Position numbers and translations under genes: made by a program | DNA from: Chondrosia reniformis | Lineage: Eukaryota; Porifera; Demospongiae; Chondrillida; Chondrillidae | DNA length: 64,000 bases | NCBI GenBank assembly: GCA_947172415.1 | Contig: OX359192.1 | Coordinates: 5,520,501 to 5,584,500, forward strand | Direction of reading: 5' to 3' | Notes under the pieces: model-generated | The model's input: only the letters and a program-made list of their open reading frames with translations | What the model was told of the DNA's origin: nothing | Databases searched by the model: none | Shown: piece by piece, positions 3,124 through 63,558 of the stretch | How the letters are laid out: each line of letters opens with the position of its first letter | Numbering within the stretch: the stretch's first letter is position 1

Positions 3124-3591
3124 TTAGCAATTTCCAGTTCCACAGGCGGCGGCCACTGCAATTATAATAACAATGACTACTACTGCAATGATAGCTCCAG
3201 TGACCACTGCAGCTATGATTATTCTCATTTTTCTGTTTTTGGATGCCAGCTCCTTTCCCTATGTACATACATACATACATACATACATACATACATACAT
3301 ACATACATACATACATACATACATACATACATACATACATACATACATACATACATACATACATACATACATACATACATACATACATACATACATACAT
3401 ACATACATACATACATACATACATACATACATACATACATACATACATACATACATACATACATACATACATACATACATACATACATACATACATACAT
3501 ACATACATACATACATACATACATACATACATACATACATACATACATACATACATACATACATACATACATACATACATACATACATACA

Positions 3592-3623
<32 letters not shown>

Positions 3624-5559: not shown

Positions 5560-8500
5560 ATGGAATCCAAATCAAGGGACAGTTACGTCATCTTACCTGC
5601 AAAGAACAAAAACTTGAAGAATGGTCTAGTTTTAGAAAAGTTATTTGACGATGATTCGAACTCGCGTATAAAGCAGATATACTGTTGTGGATTTTCTTTC
5701 ATGACGATGGCCATAATACAAGGTATTTCATGTTTAGTGTTAGATTTGGGTGACTCTTGTTCTCCGAATCTCATTGATTGCGATTGCAGGTTTAATCGTA
5801 ATAGGTCTCCAAATTGCCATTAGTGTCTTGGGAGGTTTAGAGGGAAGCTTTCAATTCAGAGAGAGTCACGTCCTATTGGACCACTGCAGCTGTGAGGCGC
5901 TACCGCTTTACCGGGATGAATTAAGAGATCGTGGATCTGAGAGTCTCCTAAATACATTGAAAAACATTTCCTCTGACAGCGACATTGCCAAGTACTGTGA
6001 GGAAGTAGAAATTATGAATACTTTTACAGCTAACAGAACTGGGAGCTCAATTAGTAATCAGGTAGACCCTCGTCGTGTCTTTTTGAACTGTACCTTATTA
6101 ATGGTGCACTATTTTTAATTTTGCAGTTGGGCATAGATAAGCAGTTTTACATATTTTTCTTCATCGGCATTTTGGTGTACAATACGATTATTCTAGTAAT
6201 TTCGGTGAGCTAAAATGTTGGAATGAATAGTTTAACTGTTTGTTAACCAACATCTTGATATACTTAGCTTAGGACAAAGAATATCATCGGTGTCTACTTC
6301 TTCTTGCTGCTAAACTTCCTCCAAGTACTGTACAGTTTTCTTCAAGGTGAGGTGTTGTCTGTGAATAGCCATCATATAATGATATCTCCATTGTTCATAT
6401 CAGTTTTATTAAGGGGATCAGATTGACTTTGAATTGATCACTATTTATGTAAATATTCTCTTTTCAGTATATCAGTTTAGAAATTTTGATAGCACAGTTG
6501 GACTTTTATCAATAGGATATATCGCTCTTGCCAATGTAAGTCTTGTCGATGATTTATGTATATAGAGTGTAGAGTCCCATTCCTGATTTAGGTATATATA
6601 GAGTGTAGAGTCCCATTCCTGATTTATGTATATAGAGTGTAGAGTCCCATTCCTGATTTATGTATATAGAGTGTAGAGTCCCATTCCTGATTTATGTATA
6701 TAGAGTGTAGAGTCCCATTCCTGATTTATGTATATAGAGTGTGGAGTCCCATTCCTGATTTATGTATATAGAGTGTAGAGTCCCATTCCTGATTTATGTC
6801 ACAAGTTACACAAATGACTTTACTCTTTCTTCAGGCTCTAGTGCTGATGATTTTTACAGTGGTATTTGCACTATTTACTTTTGCTATGCACAAGGCGTTT
6901 GGTTGGTGGATATTCACTTGGTTTAGGCTATCGTCCGATGGAAATAGTGAAGAAAATCCACCGAAAACACATTCTAGTCAACTCAGATGTAAGAGAATAA
7001 ATTTGACTACCTCATTATCACATGACCTTGCCTTTCTCATCTCCTGCGTAGTCTATTATAGAAATTATCAGATTGCCATGCAAACGGCTCAGCTGGTGAT
7101 TCTATTCTCTGTTAGTCTGCCTCTCCAGTTAGCATTAATATGTAATTTATTTATACATTAATTTCCTTCTAATTTTAGATATGTTTCTTTGTTGCTGAAC
7201 TGGTACTACTGTTACACGTGTGTGATTGGGAGTACTGGTTCACTGTGTGCATCACCATAGTGTTACCAGGCCTGCTACTGCTGGGCTACATTGCGGTTAG
7301 TACTATCAGTGCCATCTCTGTACTATATATATATAAAATGAGGGACAACTTAATATGATGCCTAATTGTAGGGGGTATCTAGGGATTTATTACAAATCCT
7401 AATAATTGGCAATTTTTTAGGTGATATATAGGGATTTTTTTCTAACTCATCTTTGAGATGGTTCATCTTATAATTATTTCTTTGAGCATCTAGAGATGCA
7501 GTTTGTTTCTTTAGAATATGAAAGAGACAACCTCCAGCAGTCACCATCAGTCACTAAAGAAGAAGATCCCCACAGTCAAAAGGTCCAATTCTCAAGAAAC
7601 AAACTGTGTCTCTAGATGCTCAATAAATTAAGATAAACCATCTCAAAGATGTACTATATTGTCTGAATATGAGCCCTGGCCTTTATTTATGAAGCCTGCT
7701 TCCATAAAAGTATCCTTAGCCTGACTTTCTATACAATGCAGCATTCTCATTGCTGCATCTGGAGGGCAAGTTGGTAACACACTTCAAGTCACATCTGGAA
7801 CAAGTATTACGTTGAAAATTTACTGTCCTTTAGAGAGAGACATAGCCTCACTAAAACTGTGTAGTCTAGTCCAAGATTCTATACAGACAAAGATTTAGTT
7901 TAAATTAAGCTAAGGCAGGCAAACAATTAAGAGTGTATGATACATTACTGTAAAGTCAATGAGGTTCAGTGGTATATAAGCAGGAAGTGACATGTATCCC
8001 TATATACATATAGTAGTTATCATGTTACCATATACTAAGCCGTATGAACATCAGTTGCGCCCACACACACCTAACTAGGCAGTGCTGTGTGTACCTTTCT
8101 ACCATGTAGGTGCGCAATGAAAACATTATCTTGACCCTACTACTACAACTGATAATATTCCTTGGAATAGTATTTTACATTTTCAAAATTGTCCGGTTAG
8201 CAGAATATCACCACTCGGAAATCATGTATTGATATTTATATTATTTTCAATTTTACTATTCTGTGTAGATTTGCCCTAAGAAACTGCCCTGTTTGTTTGA
8301 TTATATCTTTTACTGATATGCACCTAGGCATATCTGAGAGGAGTCAGTCCTTTGAACATTTGGTACTGTTTGGTCAGTGGATTTAGCCGAAATACGTCTC
8401 AAAATATGACAACAACCTTTTCTTCCATATAGCGGTAATTAACCTTATCGCGTGCGTGGTCCTATTTGTGCTGATTATAATAGTCGAGCTGAACTATTAC

Positions 8501-12900: not shown

Positions 12901-15900
12901 ATCTAATCCTGTGTAGTCCTCCAGATTTAGGATGGGTTCATGCTGTTTGTCAACAACAGAATGGAAAAGATCAACCACAGTACTACATATACTAACACAT
13001 ACTATTTACCCTAGAACCATGGTCAACCATTCAAGGTAAACTTTATTTTATTAAAAGTGATAAAAAGACCACACAAGAATAATATTTCGTTCCATCATGA
13101 ACTCACATGGCTGTGATTGAGTAATATATTGAGTAATTAAAAATAAGAGAATTTTGAGGAGGCAACCTTTGTAGTTTAATTTGTTTGTTATTATAAATTG
13201 GAAAGTTGATTTTCTTAAAGGAGAGGCAACAAAATATTTTCAAGGGGGGGGGGAGGGGAATTGCCCCCATCCCCTACTAAAACAAACCCTGGTGTTATCT
13301 TGTTCTTAAGGGCTCACTTGGTAAGTGATGGTAATTCTGGCGCTTCCTTTGCAGGTTTTAGAATTGGATGGGACAATTGAGTGCCACCTGTCATCTTCTT
13401 GTCCGTTAGGGAGCTCTTCCAACTTCAGGCTTGCTTGACCAATATGACCATCCACCAGCCTCTGCTTGTGGAGTAACTCTATGTTCACAGACTTTAAGTC
13501 AACAGGAAGGTGGCTACAAGGAAGAGAGAGCGCACATCTAGTCACTTCTATTTCAGTCTATAAGCATGCCAATATGCAACACATGAAAATTCTACAAGAC
13601 ATTCTTCCTCCAATCCAATTCAAGGCTAAGAAACAATATTACCAGTACAGAGTTATACACTGTGTGATAAACAGTACATATTAATATTTTTACATTCCTT
13701 CAACAGGAACCTCTTAAGTGAATACGCATTTTAACAGTCCTACACAGCAATATACCTTTCTGTATTCTTTAAACAATTTGAGGAGGATTACTCAATTGCA
13801 GGGCTGCATGCAGAACTTGGGGCCAGAGGGGGCAAAATGAAAATTTTCAAAATTAGGGGGTGGGGGTGGGCAATGGTATGAGGGTGTAAAAGCAGTTTAA
13901 GGGGGTCCCCAAAAGTCTACAGGAGGGGACAAATCAATCCTAGGGCAAATGCCCACCCCTGCACCCCTCTATGCAGCCCTGAATTGTCAGACAGCTATGT
14001 TAAATACCTGTAGTGTTTATATTAGAGGTTTCTGTTGACATAGACTTACTCAAACTTATAAACATCTTCAAAAACAGACTCTGCACGATCTACCAATTGA
14101 GATCTGGCAACTCGAACAGTATCCATGGAAACAACAAAGTAATACTGAGCTTGTTTTGCTAATTTAATCTCACGAACTGAAAGAACAAGAGTGTGTATCT
14201 GGTCCCTTGCGGCACGTGGAGAGGATCCTTCGGCCCTTTCTTGTAGACGATTTGTACATTCTGCCAGACACTCAAACCATTCCTATTAAGAGGAATCACA
14301 AAACGGTTTCATTGTTTCAAATGTCAATATTTTGATAAATGTTTCCAAACAAGAGCATACCCTCGAGGTATCCGGGTTCTTGCAGGTCAAGTACCACAAC
14401 TGTTCTTCCCTTGCGTATTGAGATCGAACACAAAAGGACTCCAGCATTCCCGTCAGACTTCTATGAACAGGGTACACCTTGCAGTGGACAAGATCCAACA
14501 ACCCCTTTGCTCTGTGGTGACCTTCCTTTTCATAGAAGTGCAATTCTCCCTCCTTTGGGTCCAACACAAGAAACATTTCCTTCCATTTGCCAAGCAACTT
14601 TCTGCCTTTCTTTGTCAAGAAGTGAGCCTTCAAACTGGATCCATCTTTCTTCTTTCCAGCAGACAGGGAACCACTGGCATTTGATGGGGTCACATAAGAG
14701 ACCATTTTCTTTGAAGGCACAGTCTTTGAGGTTGCTTCTGAAGGACCCTAAAAGTTTAAAAAAATGTAACTAAATATCACTTGAAAGATTCTTGGCAATA
14801 TACAAATGCAGTAAAATTGTTAAATGTGTATAACACTCCAATCGCTCCTGTCTTCTTTATTCAAACACTATTTAAGGATCACTCAGCCAACACACATGTA
14901 CGTGCAGTTTACATGCACAGTCTGAGCATGCTTCTAAAAGGGAGTTTCCCAGAATGTCTTTGATGGCAACAAATTTAATGAATAGAAAATCATTAACAAG
15001 AGCAATTTCCTAGTTTGGCAAAGAGTGAATTGAAAATAATATGAATTAGGACAATCTGACATAACATTACATTGATAATTCAATAGTCTTTAAATTGAAA
15101 GTCAACACAAAAGCATCTGCTTCTTTAAACTTAGCAAACAGGAAATGACAAGCTAAATTGAACTCACTCACCACTTCAAGGGGTACCCTGAGACGAACTC
15201 CAGCACTAATGTCTTCAGTAGTGTATCTCTCAATGATATCATCAATACTAAGAATGAGGAGGAATTGCTGAGTGATGGTGAGGTGGAAGTGTTGAGTGAT
15301 GGTGAGGTGGAAGTGTTGAGTGATGGTGAGGTGGAAGTGCTGGTGTGATGGTGAGGTGGAAGTGCTGAGTGATGGTGAGGTGGAAGTGTTGAGCGATGGT
15401 GAGGTGGAAGTGCTGAGTGATGGTGAGGTGGAAGTGTTGAGTGATGGTGAGGTGGAAGTGCTGAGTGATGGTGAGGTGGAAGTTCATTTATAATTACATT
15501 TTGACCAAAGTCTGATCTTGGTTGGAAGACTACTCATACGTACATGCAAACACAGATGACATCAAGTGATGTCATACCTACGTACACACCTTGAGTACTG
15601 TCTGCCCCCCAAACTGAGATAGCACTGATAGTCCATGCTCTCAATGAGAAACCTCTGCACTCCAGTCGTAGTCTTTACTGCCATGGAGTAGCCATTCAGA
15701 GAAGGGCGTACTATAAAATCACCTATGTTACCTTCTACATAAAATCAGATGTAGGTATATGTATGAATACTCTAAAACACTATACCAAATACTACGTATG
15801 TACATCTATTCTATAGTAAAAGGCCTATATGGGAACTAAACCTAGTGAGAGCTTTGGATGAGAATACAAGGGTTTGCTCCCATTATTATACAGACCATGT

Positions 15901-18060
15901 CTATACTAAAACCTAGTGAGAGCTGTGGATGAAGATACAAGAGTCTTCTCTTTGTCTAATGCTCCACTGGGCCGTGTGTGTAGGACAGTACATATTGAAG
16001 TGGAGGTAGAGATACTACCTCTATACCTACTTGCTTTTAGTAGTTCGATGGCTCTGTCCCGACTGATGTCGGCACTAAACCAGGGCTTGCCATAGTACCA
16101 GGGGTTCACCCCCGCCACTTCCTCCATTATAATTAAAGGTATTATTCCACTTTTTCCTGTTTTCTGAGACGTGCCCCAAGCCCAATTGTCATCCATTCTG
16201 TTCTTCAGCTGATACACCTCACCCGGTTCAACACTAGGCACATAAAGAGGACGCTGAGCACACAAAGAGGACGCTGAGCACATAAAGAGGACGCTGAACA
16301 CATAAAGAGGACACTGAGCACATAAAGAGGATGCTGAGCATATAAAGAGGATGCTGAACACATAAAGAGGATACTGAGCATATAAAGAGGATGCTGAACA
16401 CATAAAGAGGATACTGAGCATATAAAGAGGATGCTGAACACATAAAGAGGATGCTGAGCACATAAAGAGGACGCTGAACACATAAAGAGGATGCTGAGCA
16501 CACAAAGAGGACGCTGAGCACATAAAGAGGACGCTGAGCACATAAAGAGGACGCTGAGCACATAAAGAGGACACTAAGCACATAAAGAGGACACTGAGCA
16601 CACAATTGATGTTTTATATCTAAAACAGACACCTATGTAAATGCCTTATATACGATTCACACATTGTTTAAGAAAAACAAACTATGCACAACACATTTCA
16701 TGTGTGCAGGTAAGACATACATATAAATACAGAGCGATATAAGTACTAACTCAATTTCTTCTTGATTCTTTCTGTTGTAACTAGCTGTTGCTTTCATAAG
16801 CAAGTACACTGGAACAGGCTATGAAATAAAGGACACTACCTCAACATACTTTTCACATACTTGCATACATATAGGAAGGTTAACATTTAAATTTAAATCA
16901 AAATTCATTTAAATTTAAATCAAAATTCATTCAAAATTACATAAAAACTAATTTACCAGACTTCTGATCCACTTTCACATAAATTAACCTTCATTAACTC
17001 ATTAGAGATACCTTTTACTCTAATGTACAGTGAGACTACCGCTGCAGCTCATACACAGACCAGGAACCCAGGAACCATTAAAAAATATTCCCAATTATGT
17101 CACTTGTCCTAGTAGCACTTCCGTATGTTTTGCTCAATATTGAATGCATTAGTGTAAGGATATTTCCTTGTAAAGGTCAAATACGTAAATGTAACTGTCA
17201 ATAGCCACTTGCACAACACTGCAAATTCTGCAGAATTCAGTCTACTAAAGTACCTAGAACAAGAGCTATAATAAGGAATGTACTCAGGCTATTACAGGGC
17301 TGGTTGCCTTGGTAACCGAGCAAAGGCTCGTTCAACTTTAACTATGGATGTCTATCTTCACAAACTGACAATTGCTCCTACTACACACACAAAGATGGCG
17401 GCAGGTTCATGGGGGAGCTTACCTGGGGAGGCGGGACAGGGTACTGAAGATAGCCATCCTCCACCACATAATTCCTGGAATAATACCCTATCAGATCTTG
17501 GAGGGACAGAAACTGGCGATTGCCAATATAATAGTCTCCGCAGATGGTGATGATACGAAAGTGATGGACGTACGCGTTCTGGGCCATGTAAGAAAGAACA
17601 TAAGTTCCCGGTCTAGTTTGGCTCTCTCTGACTAGGAAACAGTGAGGAACGCCAGCACCTTTCAATCTCGACACTGCGTCCTGTCTGGTTATACAACCGT
17701 GAAACCACCTACAATTGTACGTTCAATATTGAATATAAACAAGTCGTGGATATACAAGCTGGAGTCTTGTATGCATGTATATAGGCTACCGTAAGACACA
17801 TTTGTACGCATACTGCGAGGGTTCGACTTCTTTACTTACGCTTGAGAGGGCGGCGCGGTCAGATCCATCACTTCAGTCATTTCAGTGTCGCTTGTGTCTT
17901 CCTCTCCCTCTCCTGTCTCTATCATTTGGTAATCGATTTCTCGTGAACATGCTAAATCATCTATACGGAAGTATACCGGCTCAGGTATAATGTCTTCTTC
18001 GTTGTCTCCACACGTTTGTCCACCGCTGGGGTGACGACTGTGCAGTAATCCTGTCGCCAT
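9968..18060 (-). CDS. RASA1: RASA1 (p120 RasGAP)
   Basis: Ras GTPase-activating protein with the full SH2-SH3-SH2-PH-C2-RasGAP order. Exons: 17840-18060, 17423-17708, 16751-16818, 16031-16233, 15590-15734, 15172-15247, 14361-14747, 14050-14282, 13318-13513, ~12735-12981, 11969-12111, 11794-11900, 10870-11026, 10725-10802, 9968-10102. Diagnostic parts: SH2-1 (WFHG, FLVRES, FLSLQDLIGYYS), SH3 (VYQLKNRMDDNWAWG), SH2-2 (PWFSADISRD, FIVRPS), PH (FLTKKGRKLLGKWKEMFLVL), and RasGAP with the arginine-finger segment TLFRSSSLATML and FLR motif (FLFLRLFTPALLKP). It ends EVRLE-stop. It turns off Ras downstream of receptor tyrosine kinases. The 13318/12981 junction and the piece between 11794 and 11026 were not resolved, so one or two small exons are missing. 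Confidence 0.93.
12149..12350 (+). repeat. Dispersed repeat family copy A (RASA1 intron)
   Basis: Carries the shared landmarks of a ~200-bp dispersed family: a start like CATGAATAATCTAAA, then CCTAGTGAGAGCTTTG, then CAGCTGTTTCTGGGAAT and CATCAGTGACCCTGGGAATC. Orientation is plus, opposite to RASA1 transcription. Confidence 0.85.
15248..15487. repeat. 24-bp minisatellite, 10 copies, abutting a RASA1 3' splice site
   Basis: Ten copies of a 24-bp unit (plus-strand core GATGGTGAGGTGGAAGTG). On the RASA1 coding strand this is pyrimidine-rich (CACTTCCACCTCACC) with a CAG in each unit. It ends directly at the acceptor of the exon starting at 15247. The resulting open frame (HFHLTITQ repeats) is an artefact. 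Confidence 0.95.
15761..15975 (+). repeat. Dispersed repeat family copy B (RASA1 intron)
   Basis: Same family as copy A. It includes CTATAGTAAAAGGCCTATAT and CCTAGTGAGAGCT, the latter present twice (about 15841 and 15911), showing an internal partial duplication. The 3' part is truncated after GCTCCACTGGGCC. Confidence 0.8.
16241..16600. repeat. 20-bp minisatellite, 18 copies, abutting a RASA1 3' splice site
   Basis: Exactly 360 bp made of 18 units of 20 bp (CATAAAGAGGACGCTGAGCA with a few point variants). It ends 7 bp from the acceptor of the SH3 exon (exon boundary 16233). On the coding strand each unit supplies a pyrimidine stretch (GTCCTCTTTATG), so the last unit appears to act as the polypyrimidine tract. 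Confidence 0.97.
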
Positions 18061-48773: not shown

Positions 48774-50758
48774 ATGCCTTCAAATTATAAATTAGTCATC
48801 CTCGGCGAGGGCGGTGTAGGAAAGTCAGGTGAGTGTCCTGGTGACCCGTCAATTCCTTCTGTCGCAATCTTACGGCTAGTTGCGTAGCCACAATGTGTCT
48901 ATTGGTGTAGTTGGCTCCTCTAGTGACCTCCCATTGTAAAGCCATTAGTTAGCCTTTGTACAGCACGTACATGGCATTTTTAGGGGTAACCGAAATGGTA
49001 ACGGTTAAGTAGGAAGATGAGAAGTTGTTGGTGTAAGTTTCTTTGTTAGAAATACCATTGAAAAGCGAGCGCTACCTGACAACGGTAACTGTATACAGAC
49101 TCTGAGACAATGTAATAAGAGGCGTGCTTTTGTACTAGCTACATGTACCATTGTATGTTGAATCTGTGTTGTTGCTATAGAATGGCTATTCATCCCATTT
49201 CATTAGGTGGTTCTGTTTTAATAAGCAGTTTTAGTGACTATATGTCTATGGAATTGTTCTCTAATAAGCCACATATTTCATTATGCATAGCCTAGCAAAC
49301 CAATCTGATAATTATTGACAATCAGAGAATGAAATGACAGGGTCATCCCCTTTAGATTTCAGGTAGATAAATATTCTGTACCTATATTAACCCCTGGATT
49401 AAGGTGGTATTGAATCAGCCTTTCATTTTCAACTCTGTTAAAATTAGGAGGAGCAGGCAAGGAACACAAGAATGTCTTGCTAATTAACCTGACTCAAACC
49501 TCTTTAACCATGCAGCAATTTTTTCTATGTTATTATCTCTTCCATCAAGTAATGCGGTCAAAACTATTTTCACATTTTTGTTTTTTGTTTTGTGTTAATG
49601 GATGCAGTCTACCTATTTGAGTATTAACATTAAAATTAGTCTAATAAGACTCAATGGGGGCCAACCCTCTAACGTTTGATTTGGGAATATCTAGGATGCA
49701 ACTTCAACCTGTTTCTTTAACTCTCTTTTGCTGCAGCTATTACTATACAGTTCACAAGCAATGTGTGGACGCCAGACTATGATCCCACTATTGGTAGGTT
49801 CAGCAGTGTTCTACAGCGGTGTAGTGGAGTGTTATGCTGTGTGTCATTCTCCCATCTCTAGAGGATGCATATAGAATAGAAGCAGAGATTGACAATGAGA
49901 CAGTGGGCCTAGATATCCTAGACACAGCTGGACAGGTAGCTAGATGGTCTTTGATTCTTGGTGTACAAGTGTAATCATCAATTTTCTGCCCTCTAGGAAG
50001 TGTTTAGTGCTGTAAGAGATCGTTACATGAGGGATGGAGAGGGATTTATGCTGGTGTATTCCCTCACACAAAGATCAACTTTTCTCCCCATGCCGCGCTT
50101 CTATGAACAAATAAAGAGAGCTCGTGACACAACTAAACATGTACCTGTAGTTTTAGTAGGAAATAAGGTAATCATGTTTGCATGTTGTGTACATTTTGTG
50201 TACATGTGTATCGTGTGTGTACATTTTGTGTATATGTGTATCGTGTGTGTACATTTTGTGTACATGTGTATCGTGTGTGTACATTTTGTGTATATGTGTA
50301 TCGTGTGTGTACATTTTGTGTACATTGTATTGTGTGTGTACATTTTGTTTACATTGTATTGTGTGTGTACATTTTGTGTACATGTGTATTGTGTGTGTAC
50401 ATTTTGTTTACATTGTATTGTGTGTGTACATTTTGTTTACATTGTATGTACATTTTGTTGTATGTGTTGTAAGATAATGACTATTTGTGGTGCTGCTACT
50501 CTCATTTCTCTCTTATTTTAACATCTCCACCAGAGTGATAAAGCTGACATTGAACGTGAGGTGCCGTTTGGGGAGGGGGAGATGTTAGCAAGAAACTTTC
50601 AATGTCCCTTCTATGAGACATCGGCAAAGTTACGAGTGAATATAGATGAAGCATTTCATGAATTAGTGAGACAGATCAAGAAGCATCATCAAGAAAATTC
50701 ACAAGGCGAAAAGAAGGATTCGAAAGGAGAATCAAAGAGTTGTTGTATTCTATTATGA
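48774..50758 (+). CDS. Ras-family small GTPase (Ras/R-Ras-like)
   Basis: Five exons: 48774-48828, 49737-49793, 49862-49935, 49997-50167, 50534-50758; 582 nt, 193 aa. G1 is GEGGVGKS, with Glu at the position of Ras Ala11 and the glycines of positions 12 and 13 kept. The effector region is YDPTIED, G3 is DTAGQ with Gln61 present (so not Rap-like), G4 is NKSD and G5 is ETSAK. The segment SAKLRVNIDEAFHELVRQIK resembles R-Ras (ASAKLRLNVDEAF). The C-terminus SCCILL fits a CAAX box (CILL), predicted to be geranylgeranylated. It would act at membranes in growth or adhesion signalling and be a possible substrate class for RASA1. Exact subfamily uncertain. Confidence 0.88.
50168..50470. repeat. TG-rich minisatellite in the Ras-like gene intron
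   Basis: Repeats of a ~30-bp unit (core GTACATTTTGTGTACATGTG) plus shorter variants start about 18 nt after the donor at 50168 and fill most of the intron. Spurious frames (CVHFVYMCIV repeats) run through it on both strands. Confidence 0.92.
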
Positions 50759-61007: not shown

Positions 61008-63558
61008 ATGGCCGCCAAAACTGACTATCTTTTTCCAACAGTGTTATGGGCGCAACGGAAGGACTTCTTGCTCCTTAGAGTTATGCTACAGTCTGTCGAG
61101 GTAATTAAACAGTAAAGTCACTGCTATGTGTGCATATTAGAGGCTGGTTGCATTCTTAATTAGAAACCAGACTTCAAAGTTACTGAGACGTACATGGAGT
61201 TCAAAGGTATTGGGTTTGGCCAAAGTGGAAAGAACACTTACAGCTTTTCTCTCACCTTTTTGGAGCCAATTAGTGTAGAAGTAAGTATTTCTTAGCCATT
61301 TATTCCATAGCTTTAACTTTCTGGTTGTATGGTAACGCGAAGCTTAACCATTGTTCTTTAGTATTCTACCTGCCCCAGCTAACTTAAAGTATATTAAGAC
61401 GTAAATAAAATGGCTGTGTAAATACCGGTCTGAGGTATACAATGTAGTTTTACTTTCAATTTCTAATTTTGCAGAATTTGCGTTATACGTATTCTGAAAA
61501 AGAAATTCAATTTAGAATTCCAAAGCTATCTCGTAAGAGCTGTCTGTAGCTAATAGGAAGTAGTACAATGTGATTTTGTATGGGACACTCCCATCTCTAC
61601 TGTACAGCTGGTACATGGCCACGCCTTCAAGTTGAGAACATCAAGCCACACTGGTTAATGGTAGATTTTGATCACTTTGTTGATCAAGACAGTGAAGAAG
61701 AGGATGGCAAGGGTGATGCAAGCCAGTCTGATGGTTTGTTGGAGGAGCAGCGGCAGGTTGTTAGCTAGTCCAGTGGTGTAGTGGTGTTATCAAGTATCAC
61801 GTGCAACTTTGTTGTTACTAGAAGCTTCATGAAGTTGAACAAGTGATTGAAAAGGTTAAACAGGATGTGAAGAAAGCAAGGAGTTGTAAGCTGTGTGTAA
61901 ATTCCCTGCTTGCACAATATCTGTATCTCTTATTGTTTTGGCAGGTCTTGACCGTCTGAGACGCTTTTACTTGTTCATCTACAATACTCTTCAATTCCTG
62001 GTCTTTATGGCCATGTTTATCATGTTATTGTACCATCTACGGAGGGGAAAAGGTAGTTCAACCAGCCAATACCATTTAATTAGCTGTATTCTAATGTGAG
62101 CTCACTATGTCCTTGCATCCATAGCTGGCATGAGGTTGTCTTATGAGGCCATTCAGTACCCAATGAAGGTGATGCATTTGCTAATGTTCTTGGAGATTCT
62201 GCATGCCGTAACTGGAATTGTTAAAAGCAATTTGTTTTCATCTATTATTCAAGTACGTCTGGGTTTTAGTATCTAAATGGTTGTGGTTTAAGAGTACCTC
62301 TCTGTGTAGATATGTGGACGCAATATGATGCTGTTCATGATAGTGTCTCCAGTGGAGCAACTTCACCAGCACCTGGTAGTGTTTACCTTGTTCTTTGCGT
62401 GGACAGCAGTTGAGACCATCAGGTACGTATAATTACATGCGTCATTTCATATCCAGGTTTTCTCTTAGGGAGGGAGGTGGGGGCTTTCTCCGGAAGACCT
62501 GGCTAATAGTACTGTATACATAATACCACAGCCTCCTCATCCTCATGTTGATTCACTTAGAGCATCACTCAAGTGCTACGTTTCACAACTAGTTATAGAT
62601 TTCCTTTCCATATACCTTATCTCCCATGTGTGTGTGTATACATCTGGTTTTCTGCCGTGTCAGGTATCCATACTATGCCTTGTCTGCCCTCGATGTGGAG
62701 TTAGGCATGGTCACTTGGCTCCGCTACACAGTCTGGATGGTTCTCTATCCAATGGGTGGTCTCTCAGAAGGTAAGGTTCACCAAGAGCTTCCCTTCGACT
62801 GTGAATGCACTTCTACTTCCTGTTTTACAGTTCACTGTGAATGCACTACTACTTCCTGTTTTACAGTTCACTGTGAATGCACTTCTACTTCCTGTTTTAC
62901 AGTTCACTGTGAATACACTTCTACTTCCTGTTTTACAGTTCACTGTGAATGCACTTCTACTTCCTGTTTTACAGTTCACTGTGAATGCACTACTACTTCC
63001 TGTTTTACAGTTCACTGTGAATGCACTTCTACTTCCTGTTTTACAGTTCACTGTGAATGCACTACTACTTCCTGTTTTACAGTTCACTGTGAATGCACTT
63101 CTACTTCCTGTTTTACAGTTCACTGTGAATACACTTCTACTTCCTGTTTTACAGTTCACTGTGAATGCACTTCTACTTCCTGTTTTACAGTTCACTGTGA
63201 ATACACTTCTACTTCCTGTTTTACAGTTCACTGTGAATGCACTTCTACTTCCTGTTTTACAGTTCACTGTGAATGCACTTCTACTTCCTGTTTTACAGTT
63301 CACTGTGAATGCACTTCTACTTCCTGTTTTACAGTTCACTGTGAATGCACTTCTACTTCCTGTTTTACAGTTGGCTGTGTTTGGTTGGCACTACCGCACA
63401 TAAAGGAACAAGGATTATTCTCATTTCAACTTCCAAATGAATTCAATTTTTCATTTGACCTCGCCACCTTCCTTCAAGTATACCTCTTTATGGTCCCGTG
63501 TGGTAAGTTGATACTATTAAGGTTATATGTGTCAGCTGACCTCATGCACCACCTCTGA
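61008..63558 (+). CDS. HACD3: HACD3, p23-domain 3-hydroxyacyl-CoA dehydratase
   Basis: Exons: 61008-61100, 61164-61280, 61475-61532, 61608-61756, 61822-61885, 61945-62052, 62125-62252, 62310-62422, 62664-62770, 63371-63502, then an unresolved 3' end. About 356 aa are covered (human 362). An N-terminal CS/p23-like domain (VLWAQRKDFLLLRVMLQSVE, NTYSFSLTFLEPI) precedes a PTPLA multipass dehydratase (RRFYLFIYNTLQFLVFMAMF, SPVEQLHQHLVVFTLFFAWT, YPYYALSALDVELGMVTWLR, YTVWMVLYPMGGLSE). The predicted catalytic Tyr and Glu of YP-x5-E are present, and Glu is the last full codon before an intron that is a 16-copy array. It performs the third step of very-long-chain fatty-acid elongation in the ER. The end coordinate is the stop if exon 10 simply reads on (KLILLRLYVSADLMHHL). 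Confidence 0.9.
62795..63370. repeat. 36-bp minisatellite, 16 copies, each a full 3' splice site
   Basis: Exactly 576 bp, 16 units of 36 bp. Each ends CTACTTCCTGTTTTACAG preceded by a CTGTGAATGCAC segment that resembles a branch-point region. The last unit is the real acceptor of the exon at 63371. The frame of the flanking exons stays open through the whole array (12-residue units CECTSTSCFTVH). Confidence 0.97.

Follow-up and report, generated by a model that had tools for sequence, protein, structure and literature searches.

Intron 9 of a HACD3-type gene in the sponge Chondrosia reniformis consists largely of a tandem array in which every unit ends in a candidate splice acceptor. Is this array a source of length-variable, Cys-rich isoforms of an elongation enzyme, or has a neutral intron lengthened through repeated copying of its own acceptor? 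We addressed this question in the window, the whole stretch of 64,000 nucleotides analysed here, and in other parts of the same genome.

The host gene and the anatomy of intron 9

The protein joined from 11 exons was compared with Pfam. The results showed a PTPLA domain at 157 bits against a cut-off of 27 (4e-46), identifying the product as a HACD/PTPLA dehydratase. A CS domain is a feature of HACD3, and the N-terminus of the same protein gave a weak match to it (16.6 bits, 0.016; cut-off 21.3). Exon 9, whose 3' end reads CTCTCAGAAG, meets the intron at GAAG/GTAAGG, with the donor at 62771. Its Tyr and Glu presumably hold the active-site roles, the Glu as catalytic residue, that we assign to them by analogy with yeast Phs1. 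The one solved relative found, chain 22of_B of hpo-8, aligns without gaps over the exon 9/Glu region. The other nine introns of the gene measure 33-241 nt with a median of 63, so the 600-nt intron 9 is the exception and an intron of 60 nt is typical. The initial annotation had the exon at 63371-63502 as the last mapped one. It is probably not the last of the gene, as one more short exon of 23 nt, itself uncertain, is possible: positions 63503-63558 hold a candidate 33-nt intron followed by an uncertain terminal exon at 63536-63558, and the unspliced reading is equally open. The features are collected in Table 1.

Table 1. Positions of the HACD3-type gene, its intron 9 and the SH3 gene intron in the window
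Feature	Position	Strand	Remarks
HACD3-type gene, 11-exon model	61008..63558	+	In-frame translation, PTPLA 4e-46; last exon uncertain
Exon 9	62664..62770	+	Ends ...LYPMGGLSE + 1 nt, phase 1; bears putative Tyr/Glu of PTPLA active site
Intron 9, spliced to last copy	62771..63370	+	600 nt, donor GTAAGG
Intron 9, non-repeated 5' part	62771..62794	+	With copy 1, a 60-nt intron, presumed ancestral size
Acceptor array, 16 x 36 bp	62795..63370	+	Every copy ends CTACTTCCTGTTTTACAG
Exon 10, (V)GCVWLALPHIKEQGLFSFQLPN...FMVPC	63371..63502	+	PTPLA 85.3 bits when joined at last acceptor
Exon 10, first 9 bases TTGGCTGTG	63371..63379	+	7/9 identical to unit start TTCACTGTG
SH3 gene intron, 18 acceptor copies of 20 bp	16234..16750	-	517 nt; array 16238-16602; exon starts 16233

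The intron had initially been described as a 36-bp array of 16 units, each closed by a strong acceptor, and this description was borne out. The acceptor TTTTACAG is present in 16/16 copies, which end at 62830, 62866 and so on to 63370, and all 15 spacings are 36 bp. TRF, run on the window, reported 62798-63379 with a period of 36, 16.2 copies and a 97% match. The 16-copy array itself is far beyond chance. Depending on the acceptor used, intron 9 would be 60, 96 ... 600 nt long, each length being a multiple of 3. A genome search matched the array once (such counts are lower bounds).

Each copy is laid out as TTCACTGTGAATGCACTT followed by the tract CTACTTCCTGTTTTACAG, and its last 18 bases are the same in all copies. 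Two variants exist, both upstream of the tract. Even copies from 2 to 12 are variant, and odd copies are standard except at the 5' edge of copy 1; this alternation up to copy 12 suggests growth in 72-bp steps. The initial annotation had given the AG the same position in every unit, which held; copy 1 departs from the others at its 5' edge, which reads TCGACTGTG in place of TTCACTGTG. It therefore lacks the TTCAC present at -32 in the other 15 copies, a motif that is branch-point-like only by consensus. Long near-perfect repeats can be mis-sized, but we give an assembly artefact almost no credence: the array is just 576 bp long, the order of its variants is non-random, and odChoReni1.1, if it is the assembly in question, was built from HiFi reads with a QV of 69.8, according to the available part of its description (PMC12181767).

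We then compared the unit with the bases on either side of the array. In HACD3 the repeat appears to extend over the intron-exon border, since the start of exon 10 resembles the unit start with a chance of about 0.0013 for a match of at least 7/9; with 9 bases the match is short, and modest for HACD3 alone. A stretch similar to the unit start, TTCGACTGTG, is present within the intron at the array's upstream edge.

Reading frame and predicted insert

Exon 9 was joined to each of the 16 acceptors, and 60 nt of exon 9 and 90 nt of exon 10 were checked. The results showed that the phase-1 frame was kept and that no joined stretch contained a stop, and translation of the fully retained intron also gave an open reading, so that both claims of the initial annotation, acceptors all in phase and full retention open, were upheld. 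Each extra copy would lengthen the protein by the 12 residues HCECTSTSCFTV, in which S/T and C/Y substitutions occur. The expected continuations at the exon 9 junction are TTGGCTGTGTTTGG for the last copy, TTCACTGTGAATGC for any internal copy and GTAAGGTTCACC for the retained intron.

An open frame is weak evidence here, because 36-mers drawn at random from this window have an open reading in any one frame with a probability of 0.52 and one unit length in three is divisible by 3 by chance. One reverse frame and one further forward frame are also open through the array. The periods of the regular border arrays compared were discounted as evidence of selection for the frame, as 3n occurs in 3/6 of them (p 0.32 under chance).

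These figures bear on the proposal that the array is under selection as a ladder of Cys-rich isoforms that differ by multiples of 12 residues and serve the elongation enzyme in some way. The open joins, the open retention and the 3n unit are what such a ladder would show; nevertheless, judged from the sequence, we regard it as highly improbable. Openness and a 3n period often arise by chance, and they are not shared by the SH3 and kinase-like arrays described below. Moreover, the predicted insert would lie just after the active-site Glu, where chain 22of_B aligns gap-free, and the PTPLA score over the exon join falls from 85.3 bits at the last acceptor to 72.3 bits with one extra copy.

Border arrays elsewhere in the genome

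To compare the HACD3 array with others in the same genome, we examined genes with repeated splice sites at an exon border. In the SH3 gene of the window, the pyrimidine-AG is kept in 18/18 copies. Joined at the last copy, the gene reads into an unbroken SH3 domain (SH3_1, 31.4 bits); 12 of the 17 internal acceptors bring a stop into the joined frame; the other 5 would add whole codons. By eye, an SH2-like reading follows the SH3 exon at the 16234-16750 locus on the minus strand. A kinase-like exon at C4:6440836 is preceded by 5 copies of 39 bp; reading through the last acceptor is unbroken, and all internal copies (4/4) would give an in-frame UAG. The kinase match there covers a short stretch and lies below the Pfam cut-offs (0.0014; RIPK4 0.02). 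An acetyltransferase exon at C3:7502427 (4bmh_A, 6.1e-10), presumably O-GlcNAcase-like, carries a 42-bp unit in 4 copies, none of which closes the frame, and the array at a Calx-beta exon at C9:1070220 is irregular.

A second PTPLA gene, on C7 (L055 1633-1984), carries a mirror-image donor array of 7 copies of 49 bp, each holding the exon end followed by GTAGGT. Spliced from the first donor, its domain is intact (PTPLA 116.8 bits). The intron after this donor array contains a 36-bp array of 3.4 copies.

The unit was next aligned with the first 12 nt of the exon. The numbers of matching bases were 12 for the kinase-like exon, 12 for Calx-beta, 11 for the acetyltransferase, 8 for HACD3, 8 for C9:4740204 and 2 for SH3, so that a likeness between unit and exon start is seen in 5/6 of the acceptor arrays compared, with SH3 (2/12) as the exception. 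Taken from sequence, the class of border arrays in this genome is real. The growth of an intron by duplication of its own acceptor, one of the two origins first offered for the HACD3 array, is thereby also backed by similar arrays on other genes, two of which internal copies would wreck.

Could the HACD3 array instead be an ordinary intronic minisatellite that happens to hold AGs and to end at an exon, with no exon bases copied? Minisatellites with units of 34 and 30 bp nearly fill introns at 6550-6799 and 50186-50447 (plus strand) of the window, where they begin about 14-20 nt past the donor and have no splice sites in the unit; moreover, the exon match is just 7/9 in HACD3, and 2/12 in SH3. 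We consider this reading very unlikely all the same, as the tract and AG of the genuine acceptor recur in each HACD3 copy, this acceptor being the last copy itself, and exon starts are matched at 11-12/12 by the units of the kinase-like, acetyltransferase and Calx-beta arrays.

Genome-wide motif scans gave mixed counts against their controls, and an excess of acceptor arrays is suggestive only. A scan for triple TTTTNYAG found 155 places versus 55 for the reversed control (counts swelled by long arrays), and the scrambled-motif control gave 61 versus 92. By eye, there were 26 clusters among the matches listed (to C9:4744345); the scrambled motif gave 14 up to the same point. The CTGTARRR acceptor scan counted 1037 against 293 for its control, the matches listed ending within C1. 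No excess was seen with the TTTCNYAG acceptor scan (168 versus 242) or the GTAAGT donor scan (884 versus 1067).

We then read the ends of the arrays for exon-like starts. Such a start was found in 5/24 TTTTNYAG clusters read, among at least 26 listed (C7:4924691 and C8:7203653 were left out): HACD3, the kinase-like exon, the acetyltransferase exon, the Calx-beta exon and C9:4740204, for which the exon call is based solely on an open frame of some 30 codons. Neither exon-check count includes the SH3 array or the C7 donor array, which came to light in other ways, and exon calls outside Pfam or PDB matches were made by eye. No exon-like start was seen at the end of 5 minus-strand TTTTNYAG clusters (0/5) or of C1:580777 from the CTGTARRR scan, and no exon was recognised at the end of the 8 TTTCNYAG clusters read, of 18 listed.

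Several other repeats were noted on the way. C9:4740204 and C9:4743905, about 3.7 kb apart, share one 22-bp acceptor-like unit, and only the former abuts a possible exon. At C1:6631521 (L025 1499-1585), a 16-bp array, AATTTTACAGGTTAGT, has in each copy an acceptor that runs straight into a donor-like GTTAGT, as if around an exon of zero length; no coding context was seen for this array. On the minus strand of the window, a 24-bp array at 15255-15483 stops some 20 nt short of a probable acceptor. Both CTCAG and CTCAA occur at its AG positions, and the array can be read without a stop in the frame used by the exon that follows. A (TACA)n tract at 3264-3621 has 89.5 perfect copies and is open in several frames.

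Origin of the array and choice of acceptor

The reading that we favour, and consider probable, is that the intron 9 array is a minisatellite that straddles the 3' border of a very short intron, a so-called mirage, tolerated because the last copy is mostly spliced, and that its frame is coincidental. In an ancestral intron of about 60 nt, a 36-bp tandem duplication would have arisen between the similar stretches TTCGACTGTG in the intron and TTGGCTGTG at the exon start, and unequal exchange or slippage would then have multiplied it, partly in 72-bp steps. If the spliceosome mostly takes the copy next to the exon, the first 15 copies would simply be intron, the HACD3 mRNA would be unchanged, and internal copies would be a minor leak at most; the reading frame common to the copies would be a coincidence. 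The suggestion of a neutral intron that duplicated its own acceptor is supported in that a 60-nt intron is typical of this gene and the unit corresponds to the final 36 nt of an intron of that size, beginning with exon-like sequence. By simple geometry, 70 of the 95 possible placements of a 36-bp duplication in a 60-nt intron cross a splice border; with tiny introns and many minisatellites, border-spanning arrays are therefore expected.

Which copy is used? The last copy is predicted to make the functional HACD3 mRNA; on the sequence and on analogy this is most likely, with the balance clearly on its side. In short introns, the nearest pair of splice sites across the intron is preferred and upstream 3' sites are favoured, as far as the available part of one source goes (PMC9225289), and this proximity rule predicts copy 1, with an insert of 180 residues directly after the active-site Glu. 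No mark on the last copy was seen within the intron, because the last 18 bases are identical and folding treats the copies alike, all AGs of intron 9 being equally paired. Selection of a copy through RNA structure was rejected: the fold was much more stable than those of plain shuffles (z -7.3) but was ordinary against shuffled repeated units, 24/150 of which fold as well (this test was run on 8 copies).

The same minisatellite might thus have its internal acceptors, chiefly the first, often used, giving HACD3 inserts of up to 180 residues, with the gene impaired or the second PTPLA gene covering for it. The proximity rule (PMC9225289), the fit of a 60-nt intron to this gene, the 15/15 open internal joins and the presence of that second gene on C7 all favour such use, which we nevertheless hold to be a minority possibility. 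The same rule would cost the kinase-like and SH3 genes most of their protein, through internal stops in 4/4 and 12/17 copies; the PTPLA score drops from 85.3 to 72.3 bits when one further copy is included; copy 1 is without TTCAC at -32; and amphioxus mirages reportedly splice regularly (PMC3087553, in its available part). A wider version, in which border arrays arise frequently via tiny introns and many copies are truly spliced, with isoform ladders in HACD3 and the acetyltransferase and mRNA decay in the SH3 and kinase-like genes, appears improbable to us.

The value of the HACD3 array is that of a natural splicing experiment, rather than of evidence for Cys-rich isoforms. To our knowledge, the rules of splice-site competition come mostly from constructs or pairs of sites. 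Here 16 (HACD3) and 18 (SH3) near-identical acceptors stand behind one donor, and in HACD3 the proximity rule as given in the available part of PMC9225289 favours the first copy while protein integrity demands the last. Were many copies used, array length would become an inherited control of how long the protein is and how much of it is made. Border arrays would also offer a route by which tiny introns grow tenfold, and they suggest that mirages, described from amphioxus (PMC3087553, as available in part), occur in sponges. The literature searched yielded no report of sponge arrays of this kind, a weak result as subscription journals were thinly covered.

In amphioxus, mirages are minisatellites across intron-exon borders in Adh3 and in the globins BflGb6 and BflGb9, and Adh3 data together with globin RT-PCR are said to suggest that regular splicing is undisturbed (PMC3087553, available part). 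The sponge arrays share with them tandem repeats that span a 5' or 3' border, many copies with AG or GT, and concerted evolution; the amphioxus Adh3 units of 10-72 bp include the 36 bp found here (same part of PMC3087553). In HACD3 the unit appears to span the border, the copies carry splice signals and are homogenised (97%, alternating variants), and the donor array of the C7 PTPLA gene (7 x 49 bp) adds the 5' border to the 3' one. The differences are that the host is a sponge rather than a cephalochordate, that the copy numbers are 16 and 18, compared with 6 and 3 for the two BflGb6 haplotypes, and that in the HACD3 array every copy has an acceptor and the exon-like part is no longer than about 9 bases (compared with PMC3087553 as far as available). 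From its sequence, the HACD3 array is apparently a sponge member of this known kind, the mirage minisatellite.

A minisatellite with multiple splice donor sites was reportedly described in the human IFI6 (6-16) gene by Turri in 1995. Its copies are used as donors in transcripts, according to the available part of PMC4526556; both it and the HACD3 array have copies bearing splice sites, which are used donors in IFI6 and candidate acceptors in HACD3. NAGNAG tandem acceptors (PMC3250501, in the part available) are likewise close alternative acceptors able to keep the frame. Acceptors 20 nt or more apart are assigned to first-step recognition in the accessible text of PMC9225289. NAGNAG consists of two sites 3 nt apart (PMC3250501, same part), whereas the HACD3 sites are 36 nt apart and each has its own tract.
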